From a virus, in the IMG/VR virus record IMGVR_UViG_3300017783_000120, positions 1-31,199 of that record: a stretch of 31,199 bases of DNA; one strand, given 5' to 3'. This document shows positions 1,515 to 19,089 of this stretch, one piece after another (positions within the stretch are counted from its first letter, which is position 1; each line of letters begins with the position of its first letter). Below the pieces are notes generated by a model. It did no database searches. It had not been told where the DNA came from and saw only the letters and a program-made list of their open reading frames with translations. The position numbers and the translations under genes were made by a program.

Positions 1515-2606
1515 ATGACTAATCAAGCAAAACAAATGTACGCACTAGATCTAGACCAGTGCATGGAACTAATCAAAGCGGTTGGCAACAGCCGTACCGT
1601 ATTGCTGCAAGGTGATATGGGTACTGGCAAATCGTCTATGCTTTACGAGATTGCAAAGCAGACAGGCTTCAAGCCGATATACTTTGATTGCACCACGAAA
1701 GATCTAGGTGACATGATGATCCCATCGCTACAGTCTATCGAAGAAGATGGATGCGTTCGGATGATACCTAACGAAGAGTTGGGCGTTCATCTCGACGAGC
1801 CAGTGATTGTCAACATCGACGAGTTCGGTAAAGCCAATCCATCGGTCAAGAACGGTATGCTGCGTCTCATGTTGGAGCGCAAAATTGGTAGTTATTCACT
1901 ACACCCAGACAGCATTATCTTTGCGACGACAAACAAAGGTAGCGAGGGAGTTGGTGATCTATTGCCACCACACGCACGGAATCGTTTGACTGTGGTGCAA
2001 ACACGTAAGACCAATCACATGGACTGGATTGAATGGGGTATCAACAACGGTATTGATGCAACCTTACTTGGTTGGGTCAAAGACAATCCACAGTTGATGG
2101 CATCGTTCGAGGACGTGAAAGACCCAGACGAGAACCCATACATCTTTCATCCGCAGCAGCAACGAGCAGCGTTTGTTACACCAAGATCTCTTCACGCGGC
2201 ATCGGACATTCTCAAACAGCGGGAAGCGTTCGACGATCAGACATTGACCGCTGCGTTGATGGGTACGATTGGTGATCGTGGCGCGATGGATCTTATGTCG
2301 TTTGTCAAACTGGCAGATCAGTTGCCTAGTTTGCAGTCGGTCAAAGATGATCCGAAGAATGCCAAAGTCCCTGACAGTGCTGCCGCTATCTGTATGGTTG
2401 TGTACAGAACTCTGGCTGCGTTGGAGAAAGACTGGCTCAACGCATGGATGGATTACTTGCCACGTCTCGACACCGAGGCGCAAGCGTTGTTCGCTAATGG
2501 TGTTCGCGCACCGAAGTACAGCAAGCAAGCGATGGTCATGCAGAACAAGAAGTTTACAGAGTGGGCGATGAAGAACAGCCACTTGTATTCAGCAGACAAG
2601 AAGTGA
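1515..2606 (+). CDS. MoxR-family AAA+ ATPase
   Basis: A 363-residue AAA+ ATPase. Walker A is GDMGTGKS at residues 33-40, Walker B is VIVNIDEF at 97-104, sensor 1 is FATTN at 136-140, and candidate arginine fingers are in HARNR at 153-157. The order and spacing fit the MoxR/CobS-like branch, which usually acts with a von Willebrand A (VWA) partner to remodel or load metal into protein complexes. Here the VWA partner is two genes downstream (2815-4056), supporting the assignment. MoxR/VWA pairs occur in marine phages, but their phage function is not established. The start follows GGAGGACAACAA. A one-mismatch copy of the GTAGTG palindrome lies at 1888-1902. Confidence 0.9.
   Translation: MTNQAKQMYALDLDQCMELIKAVGNSRTVLLQGDMGTGKSSMLYEIAKQTGFKPIYFDCTTKDLGDMMIPSLQSIEEDGCVRMIPNEELGVHLDEPVIVNIDEFGKANPSVKNGMLRLMLERKIGSYSLHPDSIIFATTNKGSEGVGDLLPPHARNRLTVVQTRKTNHMDWIEWGINNGIDATLLGWVKDNPQLMASFEDVKDPDENPYIFHPQQQRAAFVTPRSLHAASDILKQREAFDDQTLTAALMGTIGDRGAMDLMSFVKLADQLPSLQSVKDDPKNAKVPDSAAAICMVVYRTLAALEKDWLNAWMDYLPRLDTEAQALFANGVRAPKYSKQAMVMQNKKFTEWAMKNSHLYSADKK
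1888..1902. repeat. Degenerate palindrome copy, one mismatch
   Basis: GTAGTT-ATT-CACTAC differs from the exact motif by one base in the left arm. It lies within the MoxR gene and may be a decayed or weak site. Confidence 0.45.
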
Positions 2607-2614
2607 GGTGAGTG

Positions 2615-2815
2615 ATGAAAAAGTATAGAGTAGGGGTTCACTACCAAGAGGGCGCTGTTCTAACTGTTTTAGCAGACAGTCCCGAACAAGCAAAAGAAAG
2701 AGCTGAAGAAATGTTGGATGATACCAAAGCTGATTATCCATTTTCCATGTTCGAGAACAAAATAGTACACCGTGAAACTGCGGTGACTGATATAAAAGAA
2801 GAGGAGAACAACTAA
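2615..2815 (+). CDS. Small conserved-type phage protein
   Basis: A 66-residue protein with a beta-rich N-terminus followed by a helix rich in Glu/Ala/Lys (SPEQAKERAEEMLDD near residues 23-37) and an acidic tail. No family is recognised. A GTG at 2612 is also possible, but ATG at 2615 has better spacing from GAGGTG at 2605-2610. Its stop codon overlaps the start of the VWA gene in TAATG (2813-2817), so it is translationally coupled to that gene and sits between the ATPase and its presumed partner. It could be a small accessory subunit of that trio. Confidence 0.65.
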   Translation: MKKYRVGVHYQEGAVLTVLADSPEQAKERAEEMLDDTKADYPFSMFENKIVHRETAVTDIKEEENN

Positions 2816-4056
2816 TGTTTGTAACAAATCTAACAGAGGAGCAGCGGCTTGCAAAAGCCGTTGTTGCTATCATGGGCAGTCCCAAGTATACAGCGTTGGC
2901 AGGCGTGTTGATGATCGGTGATCGGACGATAACGGATGATCCAATGATCCCAACCGCTTGCACGAACGGACGTGACGAGAAGTATGACCGTACATTTGTA
3001 TCGAAGCTAAACGATGCAGAGCTACGCTTTCTTATCCTTCACGAAGTATACCACAAGTTGTTCAAGCATCTGCACATCTGGCGACATCTGTATGATGAAG
3101 ATCCAGACCTAGCTAACCGAGCAAACGACTATGTTATCAACATCAAACTCGTTGACGACAACGGTGATGGGTTCGCAACCATGACAGGCGAGTTGTCCAA
3201 TGGGTGTCTCGACGAGAAGTATCGTGGTATGGACAGCGCACAGGTATACAACTTGCTACGTAAACAACCACCCAAAGGTCAAGGTGGTGAAGGTGGTGAA
3301 GGCGGCAGCGGTGGTGGTAGTGGTTCACTACCAGAAAACGGACAGCAGCCGTTTGACGATCACGATTGGGATGGTGCGAAAGAACTAACAGCCGACGAGA
3401 AGCGTGAACTAGCACGTGACTTGGACGAAGCTATCCGTCAGGGTGCGTTGGTTGCAGGCAAGATGGGCAGCGGTGGTGATCGTGACCTTGAAGAATTGCT
3501 ACAGCCACAAGTCGATTGGCGCGAGGCATTGCGTGAGTTCATTCAAGATACGTGTGCAGGCAGTGACTACAGTACGTATCGCAAACCAAATCGTCGATAC
3601 TTGTCGGCAGGCATCTACATGCCAAGCGGTGTGACTGAACAAGTCGGTGAGTTGATACTGGCTATCGACACGTCTGGATCTATCGGCAGTAACGAGTTGT
3701 CAGCGTTCTTGTCTGAGGTCAAAGAGATATGTGATACGGTACATCCCGACGGGGTTCGCGTCTTGTATTGGGACACACAGATCTGTCGTGACGAGAAGTA
3801 TGACGTTGACCAGCTCGATACCCTTGTCAAGTCAACTAAGCCCGAAGGCGGTGGTGGTACGGATGTGACATGCGTCACCGATTACATTCGTGACAACGGC
3901 ATCAATGCCCAAGCTGCAATCGTGCTAACCGATGGTCACTTGTACGGCGGTTGGGGTCAGTGGACGATGCCTGTGCTCTGGACAATCTTGGACAATGACC
4001 GAGCCAAGCCAGACGTGGGTAAAACTGTCAATATCAAGTCGAGGGACATGACATGA
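2815..4056 (+). CDS. VWA-domain protein with HExxH metallopeptidase-like N-terminus
   Basis: A 413-residue protein with two recognisable parts. The N-terminal part carries HEVYH at residues 76-80 in a hydrophobic helix, the zinc-binding HExxH signature. The C-terminal part is a VWA domain: MIDAS DTSGS at 285-289, threonine in GGTD near 348-350, and LTDG at 371-374. A Gly/Ser-rich linker (about 155-171) separates them. This architecture matches the DUF2201 family of putative metallopeptidase-VWA proteins that pair with MoxR ATPases. The conserved metal ligands suggest an intact protein. The third exact GTAGTG palindrome lies in the linker-coding DNA. Substrate and role in infection are unknown. 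Confidence 0.85.
   Translation: MFVTNLTEEQRLAKAVVAIMGSPKYTALAGVLMIGDRTITDDPMIPTACTNGRDEKYDRTFVSKLNDAELRFLILHEVYHKLFKHLHIWRHLYDEDPDLANRANDYVINIKLVDDNGDGFATMTGELSNGCLDEKYRGMDSAQVYNLLRKQPPKGQGGEGGEGGSGGGSGSLPENGQQPFDDHDWDGAKELTADEKRELARDLDEAIRQGALVAGKMGSGGDRDLEELLQPQVDWREALREFIQDTCAGSDYSTYRKPNRRYLSAGIYMPSGVTEQVGELILAIDTSGSIGSNELSAFLSEVKEICDTVHPDGVRVLYWDTQICRDEKYDVDQLDTLVKSTKPEGGGGTDVTCVTDYIRDNGINAQAAIVLTDGHLYGGWGQWTMPVLWTILDNDRAKPDVGKTVNIKSRDMT
3317..3331. repeat. Palindrome GTAGTG-GTT-CACTAC, site 3
   Basis: Exact copy, extended by one further G/C pair on each side, lying mid-gene in DNA that encodes the Gly/Ser linker of the VWA protein. It is more than 800 bases from the nearest upstream start codon, which argues against a role restricted to translation initiation. 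Confidence 0.85.
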
Positions 4057-4157: not shown

Positions 4158-5228
4158 ATGGCACTAACATGGACAAATTTTGCAAGCTTCAAAGATGTAG
4201 TGAAACACTACGAAAGTATCAAACCGCTTGTATCTAAACTTCACAAGCGTGAGGACGACATCAGACCTATCGGTGATCGTAACCGTAAATGGGAGCGTAT
4301 CGTCAAGATAAGCCGAAACTGCTACGCATTGAGCGATGGGTATCACGAAGGTGACGACAAGTTCTTGTCCTATGGGATACATGAGTACGACTACAAGACT
4401 AAGACCAGAACCACCCATTGGGACAGGCTTGGTAAGATGGAGTACTATGCACCGATTGTGTGGCGCAAGCACAAGGATGGGACTGAGACAGTTCAGATAC
4501 GAAACTGTATTGGTGACAACAGTCACTATTCTATGGGTCGCTATGCGTTCTTGGAAAGACACGTCCCAAGAAGCATGCAGTTTATCATGGGTCACAGCGC
4601 GATGCAGTATGTAGAAATAGAAGGCAAGAAGCACTATCTAGCTAAATGCAAGACTGTGCCGCGTGGGTACTACAGACAATTTAAAGAGGCTACGTACTTT
4701 AAAGAGTGGATGCAGACTACAGATGATAACTCTGCGTTGGTGTTCACTAGGGACGGGAGTGAATTGCCCTATACTGGTTGGATACATGACCCAACAACTG
4801 GCAAGTCGTTACCACAAAAGCCAAAGGTAAACAAAGAACTAAAGGCGAAGTACAAAGAAGCTATCGACAAGTTCTTTGAGTGGGGCATGACAATGTCACC
4901 TCTGCTACCATTGAGCCATGAGTACAATCAGGACAAGGCGTATGAACTACGTAAACATTTTGGGAGCGTAGATTATGTAAGCGATGAGTTCACACCGACA
5001 CGTGCACGTGAGATACTGCGTAGCCCTAATCATCCGATGCGTCTTAACTATTGGATTTTGTTTGCAAGCTCGGTGGCAGATCACAACTACTCTCAAGACG
5101 CAGGCGGGTGGGAGTATACCTATCCAGTACAACACGTTGAGACAAAGGAGCAATTACAAAGAATAAAAAGTAAATTCAATTCATTCATCAATACAAACGC
5201 AGGCTTTAAAACAAAGCCGAAACAGTAG
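4158..5228 (+). CDS. Unrecognised phage early protein (356 aa)
   Basis: The product is rich in Tyr, Lys, His and Trp and looks globular, with no membrane segment, signal peptide or catalytic motif that I can assign. The start follows GGAGAACAACA with good spacing. The GTAGTG palindrome occurs twice in relation to this gene: inside codons 14-18 (4197-4211) and overlapping its stop codon, where the TAG of GTAGTG is the stop (5226-5228). The gene lies in the early operon between the MoxR/VWA trio and a second unrecognised protein. A host take-over or anti-defence role would be typical for this position but is only inference. Confidence 0.75.
   Translation: MALTWTNFASFKDVVKHYESIKPLVSKLHKREDDIRPIGDRNRKWERIVKISRNCYALSDGYHEGDDKFLSYGIHEYDYKTKTRTTHWDRLGKMEYYAPIVWRKHKDGTETVQIRNCIGDNSHYSMGRYAFLERHVPRSMQFIMGHSAMQYVEIEGKKHYLAKCKTVPRGYYRQFKEATYFKEWMQTTDDNSALVFTRDGSELPYTGWIHDPTTGKSLPQKPKVNKELKAKYKEAIDKFFEWGMTMSPLLPLSHEYNQDKAYELRKHFGSVDYVSDEFTPTRAREILRSPNHPMRLNYWILFASSVADHNYSQDAGGWEYTYPVQHVETKEQLQRIKSKFNSFINTNAGFKTKPKQ
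4197..4211. repeat. Palindrome GTAGTG-AAA-CACTAC, site 4
   Basis: Exact copy 39 bases inside the gene that starts at 4158, encoding the residues VVKHY. Its distance from the start codon resembles site 2 (28 bases inside its gene). Confidence 0.85.
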
Positions 5229-5239
5229 TGAAACACTAC
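5225..5239. repeat. Palindrome GTAGTG-AAA-CACTAC, site 5
   Basis: Exact copy at the junction of two genes. Its internal TAG is the stop codon of the 4158 gene, and the next start is 18 bases downstream. Confidence 0.85.
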
Positions 5240-5257
5240 GGAAATGGAGAACAATAA

Positions 5258-6142
5258 ATGAAACAACTACGTATAGAACTAATGAGCGAGATACGAAAAG
5301 ATACTCATGGGTATACTCATCCTGTTGGTCTGATGGATTTTGCACATGAAGTCGAGCAGAAGACTAAGTATCTTACTTACTCAAAAGATCATCTTTCTAA
5401 GTGGGTGTATCGTGAGAGCGACAGCTTTCCCATGGGATACATAGCCTACAAGGACATTCGAGAAAATACAGCAAGTGATGATGATCCGAAGTATATCGTC
5501 TATTCGCCGAACATACACAACGGCAAGTATTCGTATGGTGATAGAATGCACTCGGCACAGGCAACAACTAGAGGGAAGGCGGTCAAGAACGCCGTGACAT
5601 ATCTACGTGCTTTGACAGTGCCACAAGTTGTTGAGATAACTAAAGATACTTGTAGAAGAAAGGCAGCTACTCAAACTGATGATCTGCGTAACGATGTGAG
5701 GAAGAAGGCTGATAGTGTCCTTGAGGACATGTTCAGTACGTACAAGTACGACAAGCCGAATGCGTTGCAAGTCGAACTGAAGCACATGGTTGAGTCGGGG
5801 CATGAGTTTCTCAACAAGGAACTAGGTCAGCAGCTAAAAGAAATCTTCACTGGGTTTGACGAGTTCAAAGAGGCGAGGCAAAACAATTCAGATACGTTTC
5901 TGTTTATCGAGGCGTATCAGTCATTTGGTCAGAACAAGTTTAGGTGTGCACCTGTTGATCTGCGTGGGTACGGGGACGAAGTGGTGAAACGTGAGTTGCA
6001 AACTATACGTGGCGAAGACGACTTGCCCGAAGATATCAAAGGCAAGTTGGCAGTGTTGGGTATGGTGGACGTCGAGCACTATGTTGATGGTGTTGGGTAT
6101 CGTGCAGCCGAAAACATATTCTACCTACGAGGTGAATTGTGA
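5258..6142 (+). CDS. Unrecognised phage protein with C-terminal AVL/VDG module
   Basis: A 294-residue soluble-looking protein, Lys/Asp/Tyr-rich, with a predicted helical middle region. The last 40 or so residues (DLPEDIKGKLAVLGMVD, then VDGVGYR) resemble the C-terminus of the next protein (6139-6396), which has D-P, AVL-M-D and VDGIG-R in the same order. A similar short C-terminal module is common in phage proteins of unknown role. The gene starts after GGAGAACAATAA and ends in overlap with the next gene (GTGA), so the pair are translationally coupled. Confidence 0.75.
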   Translation: MKQLRIELMSEIRKDTHGYTHPVGLMDFAHEVEQKTKYLTYSKDHLSKWVYRESDSFPMGYIAYKDIRENTASDDDPKYIVYSPNIHNGKYSYGDRMHSAQATTRGKAVKNAVTYLRALTVPQVVEITKDTCRRKAATQTDDLRNDVRKKADSVLEDMFSTYKYDKPNALQVELKHMVESGHEFLNKELGQQLKEIFTGFDEFKEARQNNSDTFLFIEAYQSFGQNKFRCAPVDLRGYGDEVVKRELQTIRGEDDLPEDIKGKLAVLGMVDVEHYVDGVGYRAAENIFYLRGEL

Positions 6143-6466: not shown

Positions 6467-6757
6467 ATGACACCAGAGGCAAAAGTAAAAAAGAAAGTGG
6501 TCGCCGTGCTTAAACAGCATAAAGCGTATTACTTCTATCCAGTGACAGGTGGCTATGGGCGCAGCGGTGTGCCTGATGTTATCGCGTGTTACAATGGATG
6601 CTTCATCGGTATCGAATGCAAAGCAGGAACTAACAAACCTACGCCACTACAACAAAAGAACTTGGACGATATCCAAGCAGCAGGTGGCGTTTCATTAGTT
6701 GTCAATGAGGACAACATTTCAATTGTAGAGAAAACTCTACTCAACATGGAGAAGTAA
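6467..6757 (+). CDS. VRR-NUC domain nuclease
   Basis: A 96-residue stand-alone VRR-NUC protein of the PD-(D/E)XK nuclease superfamily. Visible catalytic residues are Glu4 in the first helix, GVPD at residues 34-37 and IECK at 49-52, followed by a Gln-containing helix (PLQQKNL). Length is normal for phage stand-alone VRR-NUC enzymes, which are thought to act as structure-specific endonucleases in replication or recombination. The start follows GGAGGG at good spacing. It is followed after 4 bases by the RAMP-like gene, so the two are almost certainly one transcriptional unit, although VRR-NUC genes are widespread in phage replication modules and need not be functionally linked to that gene. Confidence 0.9.
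   Translation: MTPEAKVKKKVVAVLKQHKAYYFYPVTGGYGRSGVPDVIACYNGCFIGIECKAGTNKPTPLQQKNLDDIQAAGGVSLVVNEDNISIVEKTLLNMEK
6725..6740. repeat. Variant palindrome GTAGAG-AAAA-CTCTAC
   Basis: A perfect 6-4-6 inverted repeat near the 3' end of the nuclease gene. It resembles the GTAGTG-NNN-CACTAC family but has a changed third arm pair and a four-base centre. It may be unrelated, or an RNA hairpin ahead of the RAMP-like start. Confidence 0.4.
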
Positions 6758-6761
6758 CATC

Positions 6762-7532
6762 ATGGCTGTCAAGAAATCAGCAGTTGATAATAATAATATT
6801 CAAATTCACGAACTAAAACAGGGCGAGATCAAGCTACGCATGATTGGTCAAACACCGCTTTACTTTAATAGTATGGGATCAAAAGCTATGCGTGATTTGT
6901 TAGCAGGGGCGCGTAAGAAAACCGCTGCCGACAAGCAAGCTATTAAACACAATCCCGAAGTTGAATATAAAGAGACTATGTATATAAAGAAGGATGGGGA
7001 TACGGCTTTGTATTTCCCTGCCGCAGGGGTGAAGGGTGCTATGGCTACCGCAGCATTGGAAACCGAAGGTATCAAGAAAACATCTGTGCAGCGTTTAATT
7101 TTTCTTCCACAGTCAAAAATACAAGTATGGGGTAAGCCTTATCTCAAAATGGACATTGTCCGATCTGCCGATATGAACAGGACGCCAGATGTGCGTACCA
7201 GAGCGTATCTACCAGAATGGTGTTCGGAGATTACAATCCGTTTTGTGACACCAACTTTGAGTAAACAAGGCATCATATCACTACTTGCAAACGCAGGTCA
7301 GATCGTTGGTATAGGTGACTTCCGTCAGGAAAAGGGTCGTGGATCTTTTGGAACGTGGACAGTTGCGAGTGCCGATAACATGGCTGATTGGCAGCAAGAA
7401 GCGTGGGACAATATCACCGCACAGTCACGCGAAGTTCAAGAGTTAGCTATCGATTATCCAGAATATGCTGATCTTGAAACTTCTGAGTTGATGGAGTTTA
7501 TGCAAGAAGAACGCATCAAACGTGCGGCTTAA
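6762..7532 (+). CDS. RAMP (Cas7-like) fold candidate, RNA-binding protein
   Basis: A 256-residue protein with features of RAMP-superfamily RNA-binding proteins: an early beta-strand (IKLRMIGQTPLYF, residues 23-35), a PAAGVKGAMATAA segment at 86-98 comparable to the conserved 'P-x-S-x-K-G-x-R' turn and helix of Cas7/Cmr4-type proteins, and a Gly-rich loop GIGDFRQEKGRGSFG at 183-197 resembling the RAMP signature loop. The C-terminus is acidic and helical. Similar phage proteins are generally annotated only as hypothetical; the RAMP reading is my inference from motifs and needs structure comparison. No other Cas protein or CRISPR array is present. It starts 4 bases after the nuclease stop, behind GGAG, and is followed by a UUCG hairpin and the punctuated pentamer array, which is its most likely partner. 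Confidence 0.6.
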   Translation: MAVKKSAVDNNNIQIHELKQGEIKLRMIGQTPLYFNSMGSKAMRDLLAGARKKTAADKQAIKHNPEVEYKETMYIKKDGDTALYFPAAGVKGAMATAALETEGIKKTSVQRLIFLPQSKIQVWGKPYLKMDIVRSADMNRTPDVRTRAYLPEWCSEITIRFVTPTLSKQGIISLLANAGQIVGIGDFRQEKGRGSFGTWTVASADNMADWQQEAWDNITAQSREVQELAIDYPEYADLETSELMEFMQEERIKRAA

Positions 7533-7557
7533 ATTTTGTATGGTAAAGCTACGGAGA

Positions 7558-7575
7558 GGGGCGGTTCGCCGCCCC
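7558..7575 (+). ncRNA. UUCG-tetraloop hairpin heading the repeat array
   Basis: GGGGCGG-TTCG-CCGCCCC is a perfect 7-bp G/C-only stem closed by a UUCG loop. It begins 26 bases after the stop of the RAMP-like gene and ends 8 bases before the first array unit. No T-tract follows, so it is unlikely to be a simple terminator. It would make a strong 5' cap or processing boundary for a transcript containing the array. It is the most stable simple hairpin I found in the window. Confidence 0.75.
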
Positions 7576-7583
7576 AATCACGG

Positions 7584-8107
7584 GTTACGGCGGTTGAGGC
7601 GGGGTGCGTTAAGCTATGGTCAGGTAGGGCGCGGTCGGGTGTGTCGGGTTATGGCGGTTGCGATTAGGTTGGATGAGGCACGGCGAGTTGTGTTATGGCG
7701 AGGCGGTTGTGTTAAGATGTGTTGTTGTAAGGTCGGTTCGGCGTAGTCTGGTGCGTTTTGGCGAGGCGGTTATGGCGGTTGAGGTAAGACGAGGTGAGGC
7801 GCGGTGGGGTATCGTAAGGCGCGGCGCGGCAAGGCAAGGCGGTTACGGCGGGGTAAGGCGCGGCGCGGTGAAGTACGGCGAGTTGTGGTATGGCGGTCAA
7901 GGCGAGGTGATGTGCGTTACGGTTAGGTTGGGCGCGGTTGGGCAAGGCGGTCAAGGCGCGGCGAAGCGAGTTAAGTTTTGGTCGGGTGGGTTACGGAGTG
8001 GTGAGGCAAGGCGGTCGGGGCGCGGTCGGGCGGGGTCAGGTTCGGTTCGATTTGGCAAGGCGGTTCTGGTGAGTCGGGGCATGTTTCGATTGGTCACGGC
8101 TAGGCAA
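7584..8107 (+). repeat. Punctuated G-K-Y-N-N pentanucleotide array, candidate non-coding RNA
   Basis: The whole stretch divides into five-base units of form G-[G/T]-[C/T]-N-N. By hand count of 96 units, base 1 is G in 91, base 2 is G or T in 88 and base 3 is a pyrimidine in 94; bases 4-5 vary freely. Units are grouped in blocks, each closed by the tetramer GGCG (10 copies, first base at 7589, 7653, 7702, 7765, 7774, 7838, 7892, 7946, 8010, 8059), and every block begins GTT or GTC. Blocks: 7593-7656 (12 units), 7657-7705 (9), 7706-7768 (12, one unit, GTGC, lacking a base), 7778-7841 (12), 7842-7895 (10), 7896-7949 (10), 7950-8013 (12), 8014-8062 (9), 8063-8107 (9, no closing tetramer). One-unit blocks sit at 7584-7592 and 7769-7777. 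The strand is strongly G-rich (31 G, 12 C, 10 A, 7 T in 7801-7860). Open frames here lack ribosome binding sites and probably persist only because A-poor DNA has few stop codons. Confidence 0.85.
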
Positions 8108-8118
8108 TTAAATATAAA
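8090..8118 (+). promoter_or_regulatory. Possible promoter at the end of the array
   Basis: TTGGTC at 8090-8095, a 17-base spacer and TATAAA at 8113-8118 form a plausible sigma70 promoter with a weak -35 box. It would restart transcription for the genes from 8144 after the G-rich array. The AT-rich stretch right after the last array unit supports the -10 element; the -35 box lies inside array units, so it could be chance. Confidence 0.35.
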
Positions 8119-8143
8119 CAAGTAGCTGTATATGGAGAACAGA

Positions 8144-8665
8144 ATGGCTAAATTTAATAAGAAGACTAAGCAGAAAATTATTGATGCTTATTTAAACGAT
8201 ACTGGTAGAAATACGTTTGTGCCAGAAGAGTTTGTCACGTGGTTGGCTGATAAGCCAAATCACATTGCTTATAAAGCTTTTCATGGACAGGATGAACATC
8301 TGTTGTGGCAAGCGAAGTTACAGTTAGCGCGGCAGTTTGTGTCGGGCTTGCGTATTGTGGTGAAAGAAACAATTGTACCGAGCGAGGTGCAAAACATAGA
8401 AGTGGTAGAAACACCTGTCGATAGGTCTGTGGAATACCCTGCTATGATCTCAAGAACCAGTACCCGAAGGAAGGGTGGTGGTTACGATTTCTTTGATCCA
8501 GATAGCAAGCATGATCATGAGGAGTTGCGTAAGCAGGCAGGCATCGCGCTTGCGGCATGGCTCAATAGATTTCGTGGGTGTGCAGAACATATCAATCTGG
8601 ATTTAACACCAGTCGAAGAACTTGTGCATGCGTTGCGTGATGACAAACCAATCGCAGCAGAATAG
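8144..8665 (+). CDS. Unrecognised phage protein following the array
   Basis: A 173-residue protein with a Lys-rich N-terminus (MAKFNKKTKQKI), a helical middle with several Trp, a basic patch STRRKGGG near the centre, and an acidic C-terminus. No family is recognised. ATG at 8144 is preferred to one at 8132 because GGAGAACAG lies between them and matches the start context of other genes here. As the first gene after the array, with basic patches suitable for nucleic acid binding, it is a candidate second protein of an array-associated system, though it may simply belong to the downstream operon. Confidence 0.7.
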   Translation: MAKFNKKTKQKIIDAYLNDTGRNTFVPEEFVTWLADKPNHIAYKAFHGQDEHLLWQAKLQLARQFVSGLRIVVKETIVPSEVQNIEVVETPVDRSVEYPAMISRTSTRRKGGGYDFFDPDSKHDHEELRKQAGIALAAWLNRFRGCAEHINLDLTPVEELVHALRDDKPIAAE

Positions 8666-8789
8666 CATACCACAAGAACTAGCCCTGTTTCTTAGTGAGA
8701 TGGGGCTAGTCGAAGAACGTGAAGAGGTGCAGCGAGAAGAGCATGTTGCTTGGTTGCCCTCTTTCGATGGAGAAGAACCACCTTTTTAG
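8640..8789 (+). CDS. Small acidic protein (49 aa)
   Basis: A short frame beginning at ATG 8640, overlapping the end of the previous gene by 26 bases, and ending at TAG 8787-8789, 9 bases before the next start. The product is acidic, with a predicted amphipathic helix (PQELALFLSEMGLVEEREEV) and the C-terminal end EEPPF. It fills an otherwise empty gap in a tightly packed operon, which supports it being real. It also contains an 8-bp inverted repeat at the DNA level. Function unknown. Confidence 0.5.
   Translation: MTNQSQQNSIPQELALFLSEMGLVEEREEVQREEHVAWLPSFDGEEPPF
8678..8710 (+). promoter_or_regulatory. Eight-bp inverted repeat within a small gene
   Basis: ACTAGCCC at 8678-8685 pairs with GGGCTAGT at 8703-8710 across a 17-base loop. 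There is no following T-tract. It could form a moderate RNA hairpin affecting expression of the small gene or its downstream neighbour. Confidence 0.35.
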
Positions 8790-14173: not shown

Positions 14174-14563
14174 ATGGCGGTATCAGTCGAAGGGCTTACA
14201 AAAGCCTACATCAAAATACGTGATAAGCGTTCGGAGTTGTCTGCCAAATTCAAAGAAGAAGATGGTGATCTTGCTGAAAAGCAAGATAAGATTAAACGTG
14301 CCTTGCTAAAATACTGTAAAGAACAGGGCGTGGACAGTGTAAGAACTCCTGCGGGATTATTCTATCGCACTGTCAAACAACGTTACTGGACAAGCGATTG
14401 GGATTCTATGCACTCTTTTATTATGGAGCATCAAGTCCCTGAGTTTTTCGAGAAGCGTTTAAATCAAACCAATGTACGACAGTTTATAGAAGAGAATCCT
14501 GATTCGGTTCCCGCAGGTCTCAACGTAGACTCGGAGTACGTCATCTCTGTGAGGAAAAAATGA
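14174..14563 (+). CDS. Conserved phage protein of replication module (129 aa)
   Basis: A helical N-terminal half (VEGLTKAYIKIRDKRSEL, then LAEKQDKIKRALLKYC) is followed by a segment with TPAGLFYRTVKQRYWTSDWDSM and a NPDSVPAGLNVDSEY end. I recognise this layout as a widespread hypothetical phage protein found near SSB and helix-turn-helix genes. It has some resemblance in architecture (helical stalk plus globular end) to Gam-type DNA-end-binding proteins, but I see no decisive motif. The start follows GGAGAACACAA. It overlaps the next gene in ATGA (14560-14563). Confidence 0.75.
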   Translation: MAVSVEGLTKAYIKIRDKRSELSAKFKEEDGDLAEKQDKIKRALLKYCKEQGVDSVRTPAGLFYRTVKQRYWTSDWDSMHSFIMEHQVPEFFEKRLNQTNVRQFIEENPDSVPAGLNVDSEYVISVRKK

Positions 14564-14760
14564 ACGAAGATACACCATATGTTAACATTAATAAGGTTGC
14601 AGACTACTTCCAAGTATCTGTGTCAACCGTCCGTAAATGGATAAACAACGATTATATACCTGATAGCACATACATAAAAATCGGTGAGGTCTATAGGTTT
14701 AGACTGGATGATGTGGAGTCTGCGCTGTCAGAAGCAAGCAAAACAGGAACGGCTGAATAA
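14560..14760 (+). CDS. Excisionase-family (MerR-like) helix-turn-helix protein
   Basis: A 66-residue DNA-binding protein. VNINKVADYFQVSVSTVRKWINNDYIP is a helix-turn-helix of the excisionase/HTH_17 family, followed by the usual beta-hairpin wing (YIKIGEVYRFRLDDVESAL). Proteins of this family act as excisionases, transcription regulators or origin-binding factors. No integrase is visible, so regulation or replication control is more likely than excision. It is the only clear sequence-specific DNA-binding protein in the window and a candidate reader of the GTAGTG palindromes. It overlaps both neighbours (ATGA and TAATG). Confidence 0.85.
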   Translation: MNEDTPYVNINKVADYFQVSVSTVRKWINNDYIPDSTYIKIGEVYRFRLDDVESALSEASKTGTAE

Positions 14761-15467
14761 TGTCCAATATGGCATCTACTAATAACACTGTGCATCAGAT
14801 AACCTTGGGTGGTAAACGTTTTAGCAAGTCTGTAGACGGTGAACGCATTGGTGCTGTTGATAGTCCAATGAACGTAATAATAGTAAATGCCGCAAAGTTG
14901 GCTCGTACCTATTATAAAGATGAGTACGATCCAAACAGTCCATCTGCCCCAACATGTTGGTCGCCAGATACGCAAGTCCCATCCGTTGATGTGCCGACAA
15001 GTCAAAAACAGTCTGCTCGATGTATGGATTGTCAGCAGAACATCAAAGGATCAAGTGATGGCGGTGGTCGCGCTTGTAGGTTTTCTCAACGCCTAGCTAT
15101 CCTTCTGGAAGGGCAGATGGACACCGTTTATCAAATACGAATCCCTGCTACCTCTATTTTTGGCAACGCCAAGGATGGCAACATGGGCATGCAGGCATAC
15201 GCTAAATATCTTCATAAGCACAAGACACCATCGATAGCTGTGGTGACACAGATGCGCTTTGATGATAAAACTGATTCACCCAAATTGTTTTTCAAAGCCG
15301 TTCGTGCACTTGAAGAGCAAGAGCTTCAGATAGCTTTGAAGCAGAAGAGCAGCCATGCGGCAAGCATTGCTGCGCTACAAACCGTAGCGATTCCAAGAGA
15401 GGACGCTATAAATAAGTCTCCGTTTACGGCAGTAGACGGGTTTGAGTATAACAAAGGAGAAGACTAA
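14760..15467 (+). CDS. Cysteine-containing phage protein paired with SSB
   Basis: A 235-residue protein with four central cysteines: Cys in PTCWS, CMDCQ and ACRFS (about residues 60-105), a likely zinc site. The C-terminal half (IPATSIFGNAKDGNMGMQAYAKYL, then FKAVRAL) is typical of a conserved hypothetical that precedes SSB-type genes in marine phages. It might be a partner or paralogue of the single-stranded-DNA-binding protein: both genes have 235 residues and similar position, but I cannot show homology. It overlaps its neighbours by 1 base each. Confidence 0.7.
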   Translation: MSNMASTNNTVHQITLGGKRFSKSVDGERIGAVDSPMNVIIVNAAKLARTYYKDEYDPNSPSAPTCWSPDTQVPSVDVPTSQKQSARCMDCQQNIKGSSDGGGRACRFSQRLAILLEGQMDTVYQIRIPATSIFGNAKDGNMGMQAYAKYLHKHKTPSIAVVTQMRFDDKTDSPKLFFKAVRALEEQELQIALKQKSSHAASIAALQTVAIPREDAINKSPFTAVDGFEYNKGED

Positions 15468-16174
15468 TGGCAGAAGCCAAACCTATGCACTTAATTAAGA
15501 ACGTTACAGCTATGTATCCACGTCTGGATCAGACTTACAGATACGACAGAAACATCCCACCAAGGGGTAAAACTGTGCCTTGTGGCCCAACAGAAGAGAA
15601 TGCGAAGTATGAAATGGACTTCCGCATGACTGAGGCACAAGCAAAAGAGCTGTATAAAGCCATGGTAGCCGCATATAAAGAACAGGCGGCTTCTGATTGG
15701 CCTGCTATGCCCAAGCACACAGACGTGTTTGAGGTAGATATGGACGGTGGTTACATCGGTTCTGTACAGTTAAAAGGTCAGTATAAAGGCAAGGTAACAG
15801 AACCACCTTTGCATGTAGACGCAAAGAACAGGAAGTTACCGTCATCGTTTAAGCTTACTCATGGCAGCACTATAAACATAGGAGTTACTCTTGTGCCTTA
15901 TAGTATGAGTTCACACGGAGTATCGCTAAGAGTGAAAGCCGTGCAAGTACTGGAACTTGCTGAGAAGAAACAATATTCACCGTTTGAAGCACAAGACGGT
16001 TTCTCTGTAGAAGAAGATGATGCTTCAGCCGTGTTTGAAGATGTAATCGATTCTGCACCTGTTGAAGCAGATGAGATTCCCGAACCGAAGAAGGTCGCCA
16101 AAAAGAAAGAGGTAGCTGCTCCCTCTAACGAAGAGGGTGACCTTGCGGCTCTCGTTGATGACTGGGACGATTAA
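15467..16174 (+). CDS. Single-stranded DNA-binding protein (T7 gp2.5/DUF2815-like)
   Basis: A 235-residue protein with a beta-rich core up to about residue 165, then an acidic, Lys/Pro-spaced linker and the end LAALVDDWDD. The acidic aromatic-containing tail is the hallmark of phage and bacterial SSBs, where it recruits polymerase and helicase. Length and the core (KPMHLIKNVTAMYPRLDQ, SSFKLTHGSTINIGVTLVPY) fit the phage SSB group related to DUF2815. It lies between the presumed cofactor gene and the primase-helicase, as expected for a replisome cluster. Confidence 0.85.
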   Translation: MAEAKPMHLIKNVTAMYPRLDQTYRYDRNIPPRGKTVPCGPTEENAKYEMDFRMTEAQAKELYKAMVAAYKEQAASDWPAMPKHTDVFEVDMDGGYIGSVQLKGQYKGKVTEPPLHVDAKNRKLPSSFKLTHGSTINIGVTLVPYSMSSHGVSLRVKAVQVLELAEKKQYSPFEAQDGFSVEEDDASAVFEDVIDSAPVEADEIPEPKKVAKKKEVAAPSNEEGDLAALVDDWDD

Positions 16175-16218
16175 GAAGGTAAGGGGGAACTTCTTATCCT
16201 AATATTAACGAGAGAGTG

Positions 16219-16255
16219 TCGTGGTGAGGTAGACTCCTATCACACCTCACCACGA
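16219..16255 (+). promoter_or_regulatory. Twelve-bp perfect inverted repeat before the primase gene
   Basis: TCGTGGTGAGGT at 16219-16230 and ACCTCACCACGA at 16244-16255 form a perfect 12-bp stem around a 13-base loop, 20 bases before the primase start. It is followed by ATTCATTTT, too interrupted for a confident terminator. A second weaker hairpin (AAGAAG at 16173-16178 with CTTCTT at 16190-16195) lies just upstream. Possible roles are attenuation of the long primase gene, an operator, or replication-origin structure. Confidence 0.65.
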
Positions 16256-16275
16256 TTCATTTTGGAGCAGCAGCA

Positions 16276-19089
16276 ATGGAAACAACAGATTTTTTGGGGA
16301 GAGTACTAAGCGACAGCGGTCACTACTGCATGTTTGCCGCAAGAAGCAAAGATAAAAAAAGAATACAAAAATTTTATAGCACTATCGAAGAAGTAGAACG
16401 GGCTGCAAGTAAGTTTGATTCTGATGAGTTCGATGTATACTTTGCACTCAGTACATTCAAAGAACCCACAAACCGAAAGGGCGATAACGCACACGAGCTT
16501 AAATCCTTGTTTTTGGATTTAGATTGCGGTCCTTCAAAAGAATATCCCACGCAGCAAGCAGCAATCGAAGCGTTGCGTAGTTTCTGTAAACAACTCTCCC
16601 TGCCTAGACCTACAATGGTCAACAGCGGACGAGGTGTACATGTATACTGGAGCCTTACCGAAGCGGTTTCGGCAGAGGATTGGGTAAGCGCAGCAGAGAC
16701 ATTAAAGCAGGCTTGCGTTGATAACGGACTTCTTGCAGACCCTGCCGTGACAGCAGATGTAGCACGTATACTACGTGTGCCGAATACGCATAACTATAAA
16801 GGCGATCCACCTCTATCAGTAAGCTTGTTTGGTGTAGACCTGCCAGAACCTGTTGTCTTGTCTGAGTTTGTCGCCAAGCTTGGCGTATTGAAGCCAGTTA
16901 CCAACATAGACTTGGGTACAGATGCATTGTACGAAGCATATGCCGATAACTCAGAAAACGTTTTTAAAACGATTATAAAGAAGACCATCGAAGGACGTGG
17001 ATGCGAGCAGCTACGTTTTATAGCTACAAAACAGGAAGAAGTCAGCGAACCACTGTGGCGAGCAGGACTATCGATTACAAAGTTTTGTATAGATGGGGAC
17101 AAAGCAGCAGAGAGAATATCTGATAAGCATCCTGATTACAGCGAAGATATGATGCGTAAAAAGGTAGACGAGATAAAAGGTCCGTATACATGTGCACGTT
17201 TTGACGAGCTGAACGAAGGGGTATGCACAGAGTGTCCTTTGTGGGGTGAGATTAAATCGCCGATTGTGTTGGGCAAACGCATCAAAGCAGCACAGGGTTC
17301 AGCAACGGTATCTGCACCTGTTGCAGGTAAAAAACAAGATAGAGAGTTTGATATACCAGAATACCCGTCACCGTATTTTAGAGGGGTAGCAGGCGGCGTG
17401 TTTATGCGTAGCAGCAACGAAGATGGGGACATAGAAGAAGAGGTAATATACCATCACGATATATACATTACTCGTAGGTTGCATGACGAAGAGCTTGGCG
17501 AAACGTTAGTATTTCGACTACACTTACCAAGAGATGGTGTACGTCAGTTCAGTGTGCCGCTTACGCATGTGACCTCAAGAGAAGAGTTTCGTAAAAGCAT
17601 GGCGCGAGAGGGCGTAACTGCATGGGGAAGGAGTCTAGATAAGCTTATGGCATATACAACGAAGTGGGTCGATGAATTACAGAAAACATCTATGGCAGAC
17701 GAAGCACATAGACAATTTGGTTGGGTCGATGACGACATGGAAGAGTTTGTACTTGGAGATAAACTTATCACTGGTGCAGAGATTAGCTACAACCCCCCAT
17801 CATCTAAGACAGCAGGGCTGATAGATGCGTTTGAGCCAAAAGGCTCACGTGAGAAGAGCATAGACATGCTGAACTTTTACGACAAGGCAGGATGGGAGCT
17901 ACATCAATACATCGTTGGCGTCGGATTCGGCTCGCCTCTAATGGCTTTGACAGGGCTAAACAGCATGGCAGTGCATCTACATGGCGGCACAGGCGTAGGT
18001 AAAACAACCGCACAGATGGCTTGCTTATCTTTATGGGGCAACCCAGAAGATCTGATGAACGCCAAAGATGATACTCACAACGCTAGGATGAACCGTGGTG
18101 AGGTGATGCACAGCTTACCCCTGGTGTCTGATGAGATGACTAACATAACAAGCAGAGAGATGTCTGAGTATGTTTATCAAGTGTCAGGCGGACGTCAGAA
18201 GAACCGTCTCGCATCAAACGGTAACATAGAAAGAACTCGTGGTAAGCCTTGGCAACTGTTAGCTCTTAGCTCTGGGAACACCAGTGCATGGGAGATACTG
18301 AGTCGAGACAAAGCCATGCCGAAAGCAGAGATGCAGCGGCTGTTTGAGATACAAGTAAAGAAACTAATCAATGCTGTTGGTCAGAACGACGATACAACTG
18401 ATCTGTTTAATGAGTTGAAAAAGAACTATGGTTGGATCGGCCCAGAGTATACGCAGTGGGTGATAAACAACAAAGAAGAAGCCAAGCGCACCGTCGAGTC
18501 TGTCAAGCGCAGAATAGACGCTGCGGCAGGGCTAGGACCAGAAAATAGGTTTTGGTCAAACGGCAATGCTGTAATTCTTGCAGGGCTTATCATAGCTAAG
18601 AACCTTGGGTTTGTTAATTATGACGTGGGTGCTGTATATAAATGGGTGGTAAAAGAACTGATTATACGAAACAACTTTGTCAACGACATCGGCGCATCGG
18701 TATCCCAAACACTCAACAACTACTTGTCAGAGAACTACAACAACCTGCTGAAGATAGAAAGCACACAGGACTTGCGAGGCAAGAACGACAGTGGTCTGGA
18801 TCAGCTTGTACCTATTTCGGCATCGCCAAGGGGCTTCTTGGTTGCACGGTACGAGCCTGACACAAAACTGTTATTCCTACGTATCAAGCCATTTAGAGAG
18901 TGGTGTATAGATCAGCAGATAAACTACGCTAGTCTTGTGGACGATCTGAAAGATAAGCTGAACGCCAAGCGTATAAAGAAACGTTTGACTAAAGGCACAG
19001 ACTTTAATCTGCCACCAGACTGGGTGTTGGAGATGAAATTTGAAGAGCTAGATGAGGGCAGTGATGGATCAGAAAGTGATGAAGCTTGA
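16276..19089 (+). CDS. Fused primase (AEP-like) and DUF927 helicase
   Basis: A 937-residue bifunctional replication protein. The N-terminal domain has DLD at 81-83, SGRGVHVYW at 117-125 and ARILRVPNTHNYK at 163-175, the pattern of archaeo-eukaryotic-type primases. A Cys cluster with CTECPLW near residue 320 could bind zinc. The C-terminal DUF927-type helicase domain has Walker A GGTGVGKTT at 570-578, a DEM Walker B-like segment (LVSDEM) and ALSSGN as sensor. It synthesises primers and unwinds DNA at the fork. The start is preceded by GGAG at 16264-16267 and the stop overlaps the next small gene. Confidence 0.9.
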   Translation: METTDFLGRVLSDSGHYCMFAARSKDKKRIQKFYSTIEEVERAASKFDSDEFDVYFALSTFKEPTNRKGDNAHELKSLFLDLDCGPSKEYPTQQAAIEALRSFCKQLSLPRPTMVNSGRGVHVYWSLTEAVSAEDWVSAAETLKQACVDNGLLADPAVTADVARILRVPNTHNYKGDPPLSVSLFGVDLPEPVVLSEFVAKLGVLKPVTNIDLGTDALYEAYADNSENVFKTIIKKTIEGRGCEQLRFIATKQEEVSEPLWRAGLSITKFCIDGDKAAERISDKHPDYSEDMMRKKVDEIKGPYTCARFDELNEGVCTECPLWGEIKSPIVLGKRIKAAQGSATVSAPVAGKKQDREFDIPEYPSPYFRGVAGGVFMRSSNEDGDIEEEVIYHHDIYITRRLHDEELGETLVFRLHLPRDGVRQFSVPLTHVTSREEFRKSMAREGVTAWGRSLDKLMAYTTKWVDELQKTSMADEAHRQFGWVDDDMEEFVLGDKLITGAEISYNPPSSKTAGLIDAFEPKGSREKSIDMLNFYDKAGWELHQYIVGVGFGSPLMALTGLNSMAVHLHGGTGVGKTTAQMACLSLWGNPEDLMNAKDDTHNARMNRGEVMHSLPLVSDEMTNITSREMSEYVYQVSGGRQKNRLASNGNIERTRGKPWQLLALSSGNTSAWEILSRDKAMPKAEMQRLFEIQVKKLINAVGQNDDTTDLFNELKKNYGWIGPEYTQWVINNKEEAKRTVESVKRRIDAAAGLGPENRFWSNGNAVILAGLIIAKNLGFVNYDVGAVYKWVVKELIIRNNFVNDIGASVSQTLNNYLSENYNNLLKIESTQDLRGKNDSGLDQLVPISASPRGFLVARYEPDTKLLFLRIKPFREWCIDQQINYASLVDDLKDKLNAKRIKKRLTKGTDFNLPPDWVLEMKFEELDEGSDGSESDEA

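Follow-up and report, generated by a model that had tools for sequence, protein, structure and literature searches.

VIPR, an RNA-guided system reported only recently, is presumed to predate CRISPR. It combines a RAMP protein, Vipr, with vrRNAs made up of 9–16 YNNGG repeats (PMC13142463, bioRxiv 2026.04.26.720920). Competing phages are the targets: the NN letters of these repeats recognise double-stranded DNA while skipping 1 nt per step, usually the wobble base (PMC13142463). DNA binding and repression have been demonstrated for Escherichia phage SUSP1 only, the locus of which contains four arrays, one upstream and three downstream of vipr (PMC13142463). We analysed a marine phage genome, an uncultivated virus record of 31,199 bases from IMG/VR (the window), and conclude with a probability of about 0.94 that it carries a phage VIPR system whose Vipr guides would silence morphogenesis genes of rivals, a reading made in the absence of transcript, RNP or silencing data.

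The product of the gene denoted vipr (Table 1) matches PHROG 4652, a family of unknown function, at 2e-14. PHROG 4652 in turn matches the Vipr protein of SUSP1 at 1.4e-96 and gp39 of Gordonia phage UmaThurman at 1.1e-53. Comparison of the gene family with five Vipr proteins by hhalign gave a probability of 99 (E 4.6e-18), and the top PDB profile hit of the product is 36pp, the SUSP1 Vipr (E 0.005). The best 50 Foldseek matches, obtained with an AlphaFold model of low confidence (pLDDT 62), are all CRISPR effector RAMPs. No family for this product was found in Pfam and NCBIfam, and tblastn places it at only ~27–29% identity to the Gordonia proteins. As judged by profile and fold matches, the gene encodes a Vipr-family RAMP. 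PHROG 4652, labelled as of unknown function, is thus the family of Vipr, and matches to it offer a means of locating VIPR loci. Directly 5' of vipr lies a small endonuclease-like gene (6467–6757, phrog_93), with a relative in 40 of the 87 loci analysed, which possibly belongs to a replication module and not to VIPR. The window also contains two neighbouring genes (4158–6142; 356 and 294 aa) for which no PHROG or accepted Pfam family was found, and a gene pair (1515–4056) encoding an AAA ATPase and a DUF2201 (metallopeptidase-like/VWA) protein.

A simple five-state periodic HMM placed a GKYNN array downstream of vipr, and detected no further array of at least 40 nt on either strand of the window. 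When the same HMM was applied to the SUSP1 locus as a blind positive control, it returned exactly four arrays, one 5' and three 3' of vipr, matching the preprint. The lag-5 identity of the window array is 0.466, compared to 0.317 ± 0.019 in 1000 dinucleotide shuffles (z 7.9). Runs of four units, GKY(NNGKY)x3, occur 29 times, while dinucleotide shuffles gave a mean of 0.3 ± 0.6 and a maximum of 3. The pentamer consensus is nearer G(.95)-K(G.68, T.25)-Y-N-N. The region is intergenic, with a strong G skew and a regular 5-bp spacing. Rfam contained nothing up to E 1 across 6500–8700, and no near-match to the window was found in phage DNA.

Table 1 Features of the VIPR locus in the window (NN, variable letter pairs in reading order).
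Feature	Position	Strand	Remarks
vipr, Vipr-family RAMP (Cas7-like), 256 aa, glycine-rich loop GIGDFRQEKGRGSFG	6762–7532	+	Assigned from PHROG, hhalign, PDB profile and Foldseek
Leader hairpin GGGGCGG-UUCG-CCGCCCC	7558–7575	+	Between vipr and array
Putative vrRNA guide array, GKYNN units	7582–8105	+	Lag-5 and HMM statistics; array in 87/87 homologous loci
Putative guide module 1	7592–7655	+	NN = GA GG GC AA AT CA AG GC CG GT GG AT
Putative guide module 2	7656–7704	+	Common to L009 and L011; NN = GC TA TG GA AC GA GT AT GA
Module 3, irregular	7705–7767	+	63 nt with internal slip
Remnant, 9 nt	7768–7776	+	Flanked by two delimiters
Putative guide module 4	7777–7840	+	NN = GA AA GA GA GC GG AT AA GC GC AA AA
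Putative guide module 5	7841–7894	+	Common to L009; NN = AC GG AA GC GC GA AC GA GT AT
Putative guide module 6	7895–7948	+	NN = AA GA GA GC AC TA TG GC TG AA
Putative guide module 7	7949–8012	+	NN = AA GC GA GA AA TT CG GG AC GT GA AA
Putative guide module 8	8013–8061	+	NN = GG GC CG GG CA TC TC TT AA
Last putative guide module	8062–8105	+	Without closing delimiter
Accessory gene (vap-like), 177 aa	8132–8665	+	Conserved 3' of array

Homologues of vipr were collected from viral contigs (335 contigs in all, 80 kept), and 87 non-redundant loci were analysed. All 87 contain an array that adjoins vipr on the same strand, with none on the opposite strand. In a collection of cellular genomes the vipr family was found on two short MAG contigs only, hence the clade looks essentially viral. 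Of 29 loci with individually folded leaders, nearly all have a comparable GC-rich hairpin at the junction of vipr and array, with sequences that differ between loci. It may act as an insulator, as a processing signal or as a 5' end; no usable covariation count could be obtained for it, as the alignment of the divergent leaders was too poor. The accessory gene is present in 80 of the 87 loci, and the remaining seven contigs stop within or right after the array. Its product is weakly related to the accessory gene products gp41/gp52 of the Gordonia/Mycobacterium VIPR loci (hhalign E 1.5e-5, probability 79) and aligns with its counterpart from cyanophage Cy-LDV1 at E 1e-3 (hhalign). No similarity to SUSP1 vap1 was seen, Pfam and NCBIfam searches returned nothing, and a structure model of moderate quality had no PDB match. 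These observations bear on a first-pass annotation of the window, which had described a pentanucleotide array beside a RAMP-like gene and a UUCG hairpin and had taken homologues without arrays as grounds for refuting its reading. The RAMP-like features are confirmed by the PHROG, hhalign, PDB profile and Foldseek matches, the hairpin is present, and the excess of four-unit runs over shuffles establishes the array as real, within slightly adjusted bounds. With all 87 loci positive, that reading is not refuted.

Several further arrays were observed among the relatives. A second array is located 3' of the accessory gene in three G+C-rich relatives (L016, 3791–3974; L017, 1769–2118; L018, 5199–5315). 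In phage UmaThurman a 313-nt GGYNN array lies immediately 3' of the Vipr homologue gp39 (L024, 4354–4666); the GenBank protein gene gp40 annotated over this array is almost certainly a false gene call. Mycobacterium phage Saal has an unannotated punctuated array upstream of its Vipr homologue, overlapping the annotated start (L186, 2618–2865), and unannotated punctuated arrays are found beside the Vipr homologue of Cy-LDV1 (L188, 3583–3766 and 4364–4524).

The window array displays a second level of order. Its pentamers are punctuated by GGC/GGTYNN, which amounts to a single 4-nt unit GGCG followed by GTYNN, and hence to a -1 slip of the register. The modules between these delimiters have lengths of 9+5n, the regular window modules being 49, 54 or 64 nt long. 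Across the 87 loci modules are mostly 39–64 nt, and a length of 4 mod 5 is found in 521 of 620 modules. Regular window modules contain 9–12 NN pairs each, compared with mostly 7–12 across the clade. Modules abut directly and lack a structured 3' tail per guide, the sole hairpin seen being the one upstream of the array. From this organisation we read the window array as a set of some ten RNA guides, with the guide role inferred in the absence of RNA data. The NN letters of module 8 are identical in L009 although one K base differs. The irregular module and the adjacent 9-nt remnant (7705–7776) resemble guide decay or recombination.

The target code was examined in the clade by two tests. In the first, 272 module sequences were compared under skips of 0–3 with 0.9 Mb of their own loci, arrays masked, and perfect matches occurred under skip 1 only. 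The second made use of 78 contigs outside the guide definition, fetched via the capsid gene of the target and comprising 1.56 million positions on both strands. Under skip 1, four modules matched these contigs without mismatch and a further four with one, while no module reached one mismatch or fewer under skips 0, 2 or 3. Shuffling of the unit order gave no perfect match (0/816) and 2/816 with one mismatch, and reversed guides reached neither level.

The matched genes were identified from Pfam, with the exception of the tail protein, which is our own reading of the sequence. The L047-type module matches the gene of the terminase small subunit (TerS) at 22/22 letters, and the L038 module that of the large subunit (TerL) at 19/20. 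For the major capsid gene, the L031/L054 module agrees at 16/16 letters, and with at most two mismatches in 78/78 contigs. A module from L013/L026, close relatives of the window, matches a major tail protein-like gene at 18/18 in 30 contigs, on the antisense strand. The skipped base coincides with codon position 3 in five genes (TerS, TerL, capsid, tail and AAA_24), while a few weaker matches (1–2 mismatches) could not be assigned to the wobble register. Guide-target matches end at the module ends, and since they stop there, the delimiter appears to bound the guide. It should be noted that some modules are homologous, so that the independent target genes number about five, and that the first capsid match steered which 78 contigs were taken, a selection that has no bearing on the TerS, TerL and tail matches. 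At the level of sequence matching, modules of the clade thus address rival phage genes under a 1-nt-skip code, and the likely victims are the packaging, capsid and tail genes of other phages. Some members of the targeted capsid group (L109, L110, L113, L162, L180 and L182) carry VIPR-like arrays of their own, which suggests mutual targeting.

The guide letters also follow a codon register. Over 295 modules, NN usage correlates with sense codon positions 1–2 with r 0.90, as against 0.10 or less for any other frame, and a six-frame mixture assigns 85% of modules to the sense, wobble-skip frame. The seven regular modules of the window score -2.55 nats per NN, compared to -2.77 for a uniform model and -2.89 with the letters swapped. 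This statistic renders guide letters recognisable and decodable from sequence alone.

For the window's own guides, viral contigs were scanned for exact matches to modules 2 and 8, to modules 5 and 6 over their full length, and to the inner ten NN of module 7. Module 2 matches at 18/18 letters in two near-identical contigs (L101/L102) from a single large phage, where the match lies within an ORF reading AYWDTEVME and is in codon register. For a pattern of 18 letters we estimate roughly one hit by chance, in a collection of unstated size, and this match, being about at chance level, is a candidate target only. Modules 5, 6, 7 (inner ten NN) and 8 had no exact match in the viral collection, and no convincing second match to the module 2 target contig was found among other modules of the window clade. 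L106, a contig with the module 2 candidate target, contains at 14330–16993 a gene for an AAA ATPase and, after it, one to which PHROGs assigns the label HNH endonuclease.

We propose that the array yields a + strand transcript and that guides would be released one per module, each bounded by the one-base-short unit GGCG/GTYNN. While the delimiter is seen directly, its cutting is inferred; if guides are indeed cut there, their processing would be unlike that of the tailed SUSP1 guides. Vipr subunits would line the RNA, one per pentamer, gripping G-K-Y and exposing NN, a stoichiometry that is likewise inferred. The NN pairs would then read double-stranded DNA as NN-x-NN-x, with one base skipped at each step. 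Positioned on terminase, major capsid and major tail genes, the complex is predicted to block transcription, such that a competitor sharing the host cell could not assemble. The target code and codon register can be read from the letters, whereas the repression of rivals' morphogenesis genes is an inference. Guides would mostly be of the sense strand and in codon register, and with the skipped base at the wobble position, synonymous changes would offer a rival no escape. The first-pass annotation had envisaged a RAMP protein that holds the constant G-K-Y and presents two variable bases, which is the VIPR mechanism reported for SUSP1 (PMC13142463); for this locus, both transcription and the assembly of an RNP are inferences. 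Its pentamer register and the idea of presented bases stand, while the division of the array into separate guides and its addressing of DNA targets were both overlooked. Its suggestion of a new RNA-protein system does not hold, VIPR having been posted in April 2026 (PMC13142463).

It is conceivable that the RNA guides are aimed at RNA rather than DNA, as RNA is bound by the type III CRISPR proteins to which fold matching relates the RAMP. Most matched guides share the sense of the target mRNA, however, making pairing impossible, and double-stranded DNA binding has been shown for SUSP1 (PMC13142463). As a sense guide is unable to pair with its own mRNA, DNA is favoured as the target and, for such guides, would have to be the target; we consider RNA targeting very unlikely. 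Alternatively, the array itself could function as double-stranded DNA, either as a row of protein-binding sites or as a replication or packaging signal. Its G skew, 5-bp spacing, intergenic position and lack of an Rfam match would all be compatible with such an element. This leaves unexplained why the array always adjoins the Vipr and accessory genes and why its modules hold codon-register letters of other phages' genes, and we give the DNA element hardly any credence.

The same letters speak against a functionless degenerate satellite maintained by replication slippage and recombination. Phages with near-identical Vipr do swap, gain and lose array modules quickly, and between homologous modules NN is conserved neither more nor less than K/Y (Fisher p 0.30), as might be expected of a satellite. 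Yet the register is retained throughout this turnover, and register and punctuation persist in the 87 loci across 61–100% Vipr identity. Furthermore, only a single rule brings the NN letters into agreement with genes of other phages, and these letters follow codon positions 1–2. Slippage predicts neither target matches nor codon-register letters, and the satellite reading is thus contradicted and barely tenable. A repetitive protein-coding gene, in the form of a 155-aa TTG ORF at 7658–8125, can effectively be dismissed. The frame is open for 155 codons in this contig alone and closed in nine relatives, where the longest stretch per frame is 27–97 codons; the -1 slip at every delimiter scrambles the frames, and the ORF has no family match. 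A VIPR guide array directed at DNA is therefore the reading we retain.

Compared with Class 1 CRISPR-Cas (types III and I), the VIPR locus shares a RAMP-fold backbone protein, a row of guides in an array and a periodic protein-RNA register. VIPR differs in its 5-nt rather than 6-nt step and in gapped, not near-continuous, pairing, and the window contains no repeat-spacer array and no cas1/cas2 or other cas genes. An assignment to CRISPR-Cas was rejected given the absence of identical repeats with unique spacers in the window, and of any cas family among the proteins scanned.

The SUSP1 system, VIPR type II (PMC13142463; KT454805), has in common with the window a Vipr-family RAMP of PHROG 4652, GGY/NN pentanucleotide guides and a phage-borne minimal locus with an accessory gene; with the clade of the window it also shares a 1-nt-skip code with the skip at the wobble base, and targets in competing elements. 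In SUSP1 the four vrRNAs stand apart from one another and from the vipr-vap pair, and each bears a structured 3' tail. In contrast, the window has one tail-less array of ~ten guides, split by the short unit and located between vipr and the accessory gene; its second base is often T (GTY), and the accessory protein is unrelated. A SUSP1-like type II locus was rejected, as per-guide 3' tails and vap1 similarity are both absent.

UmaThurman, Saal and Cy-LDV1 each share with the window a Vipr homologue, a continuous array punctuated by a 4-nt unit and a related accessory gene. Their delimiter is GGCA/GGY as opposed to GGCG/GTY in the window, and in Saal the array is upstream of vipr, unlike that of the window. 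It is possible, at slightly below even odds, that the window represents a distinct VIPR architecture. Its head-to-tail, tail-less guides are split by GGCG/GTYNN only, with about ten swappable guides per phage, and clade guides are in codon register against morphogenesis genes of another group, some members of which bear VIPR themselves. The tail-less, delimiter-punctuated layout could be one of the 'staggered arrays' of the preprint or could be distinct from them (PMC13142463). The locus and its relatives (335 contigs of the viral collection) allow the code to be tested independently, from sequence alone, in a distant clade, and show what separates neighbouring guides in continuous arrays. As punctuated GGCA arrays with related accessory genes occur in actinophages and a cyanophage, the window phage groups with the punctuated arrays and not with type II. 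On homology and array structure, the locus is accordingly a member of VIPR, neither of the SUSP1 type nor a new kind of system.
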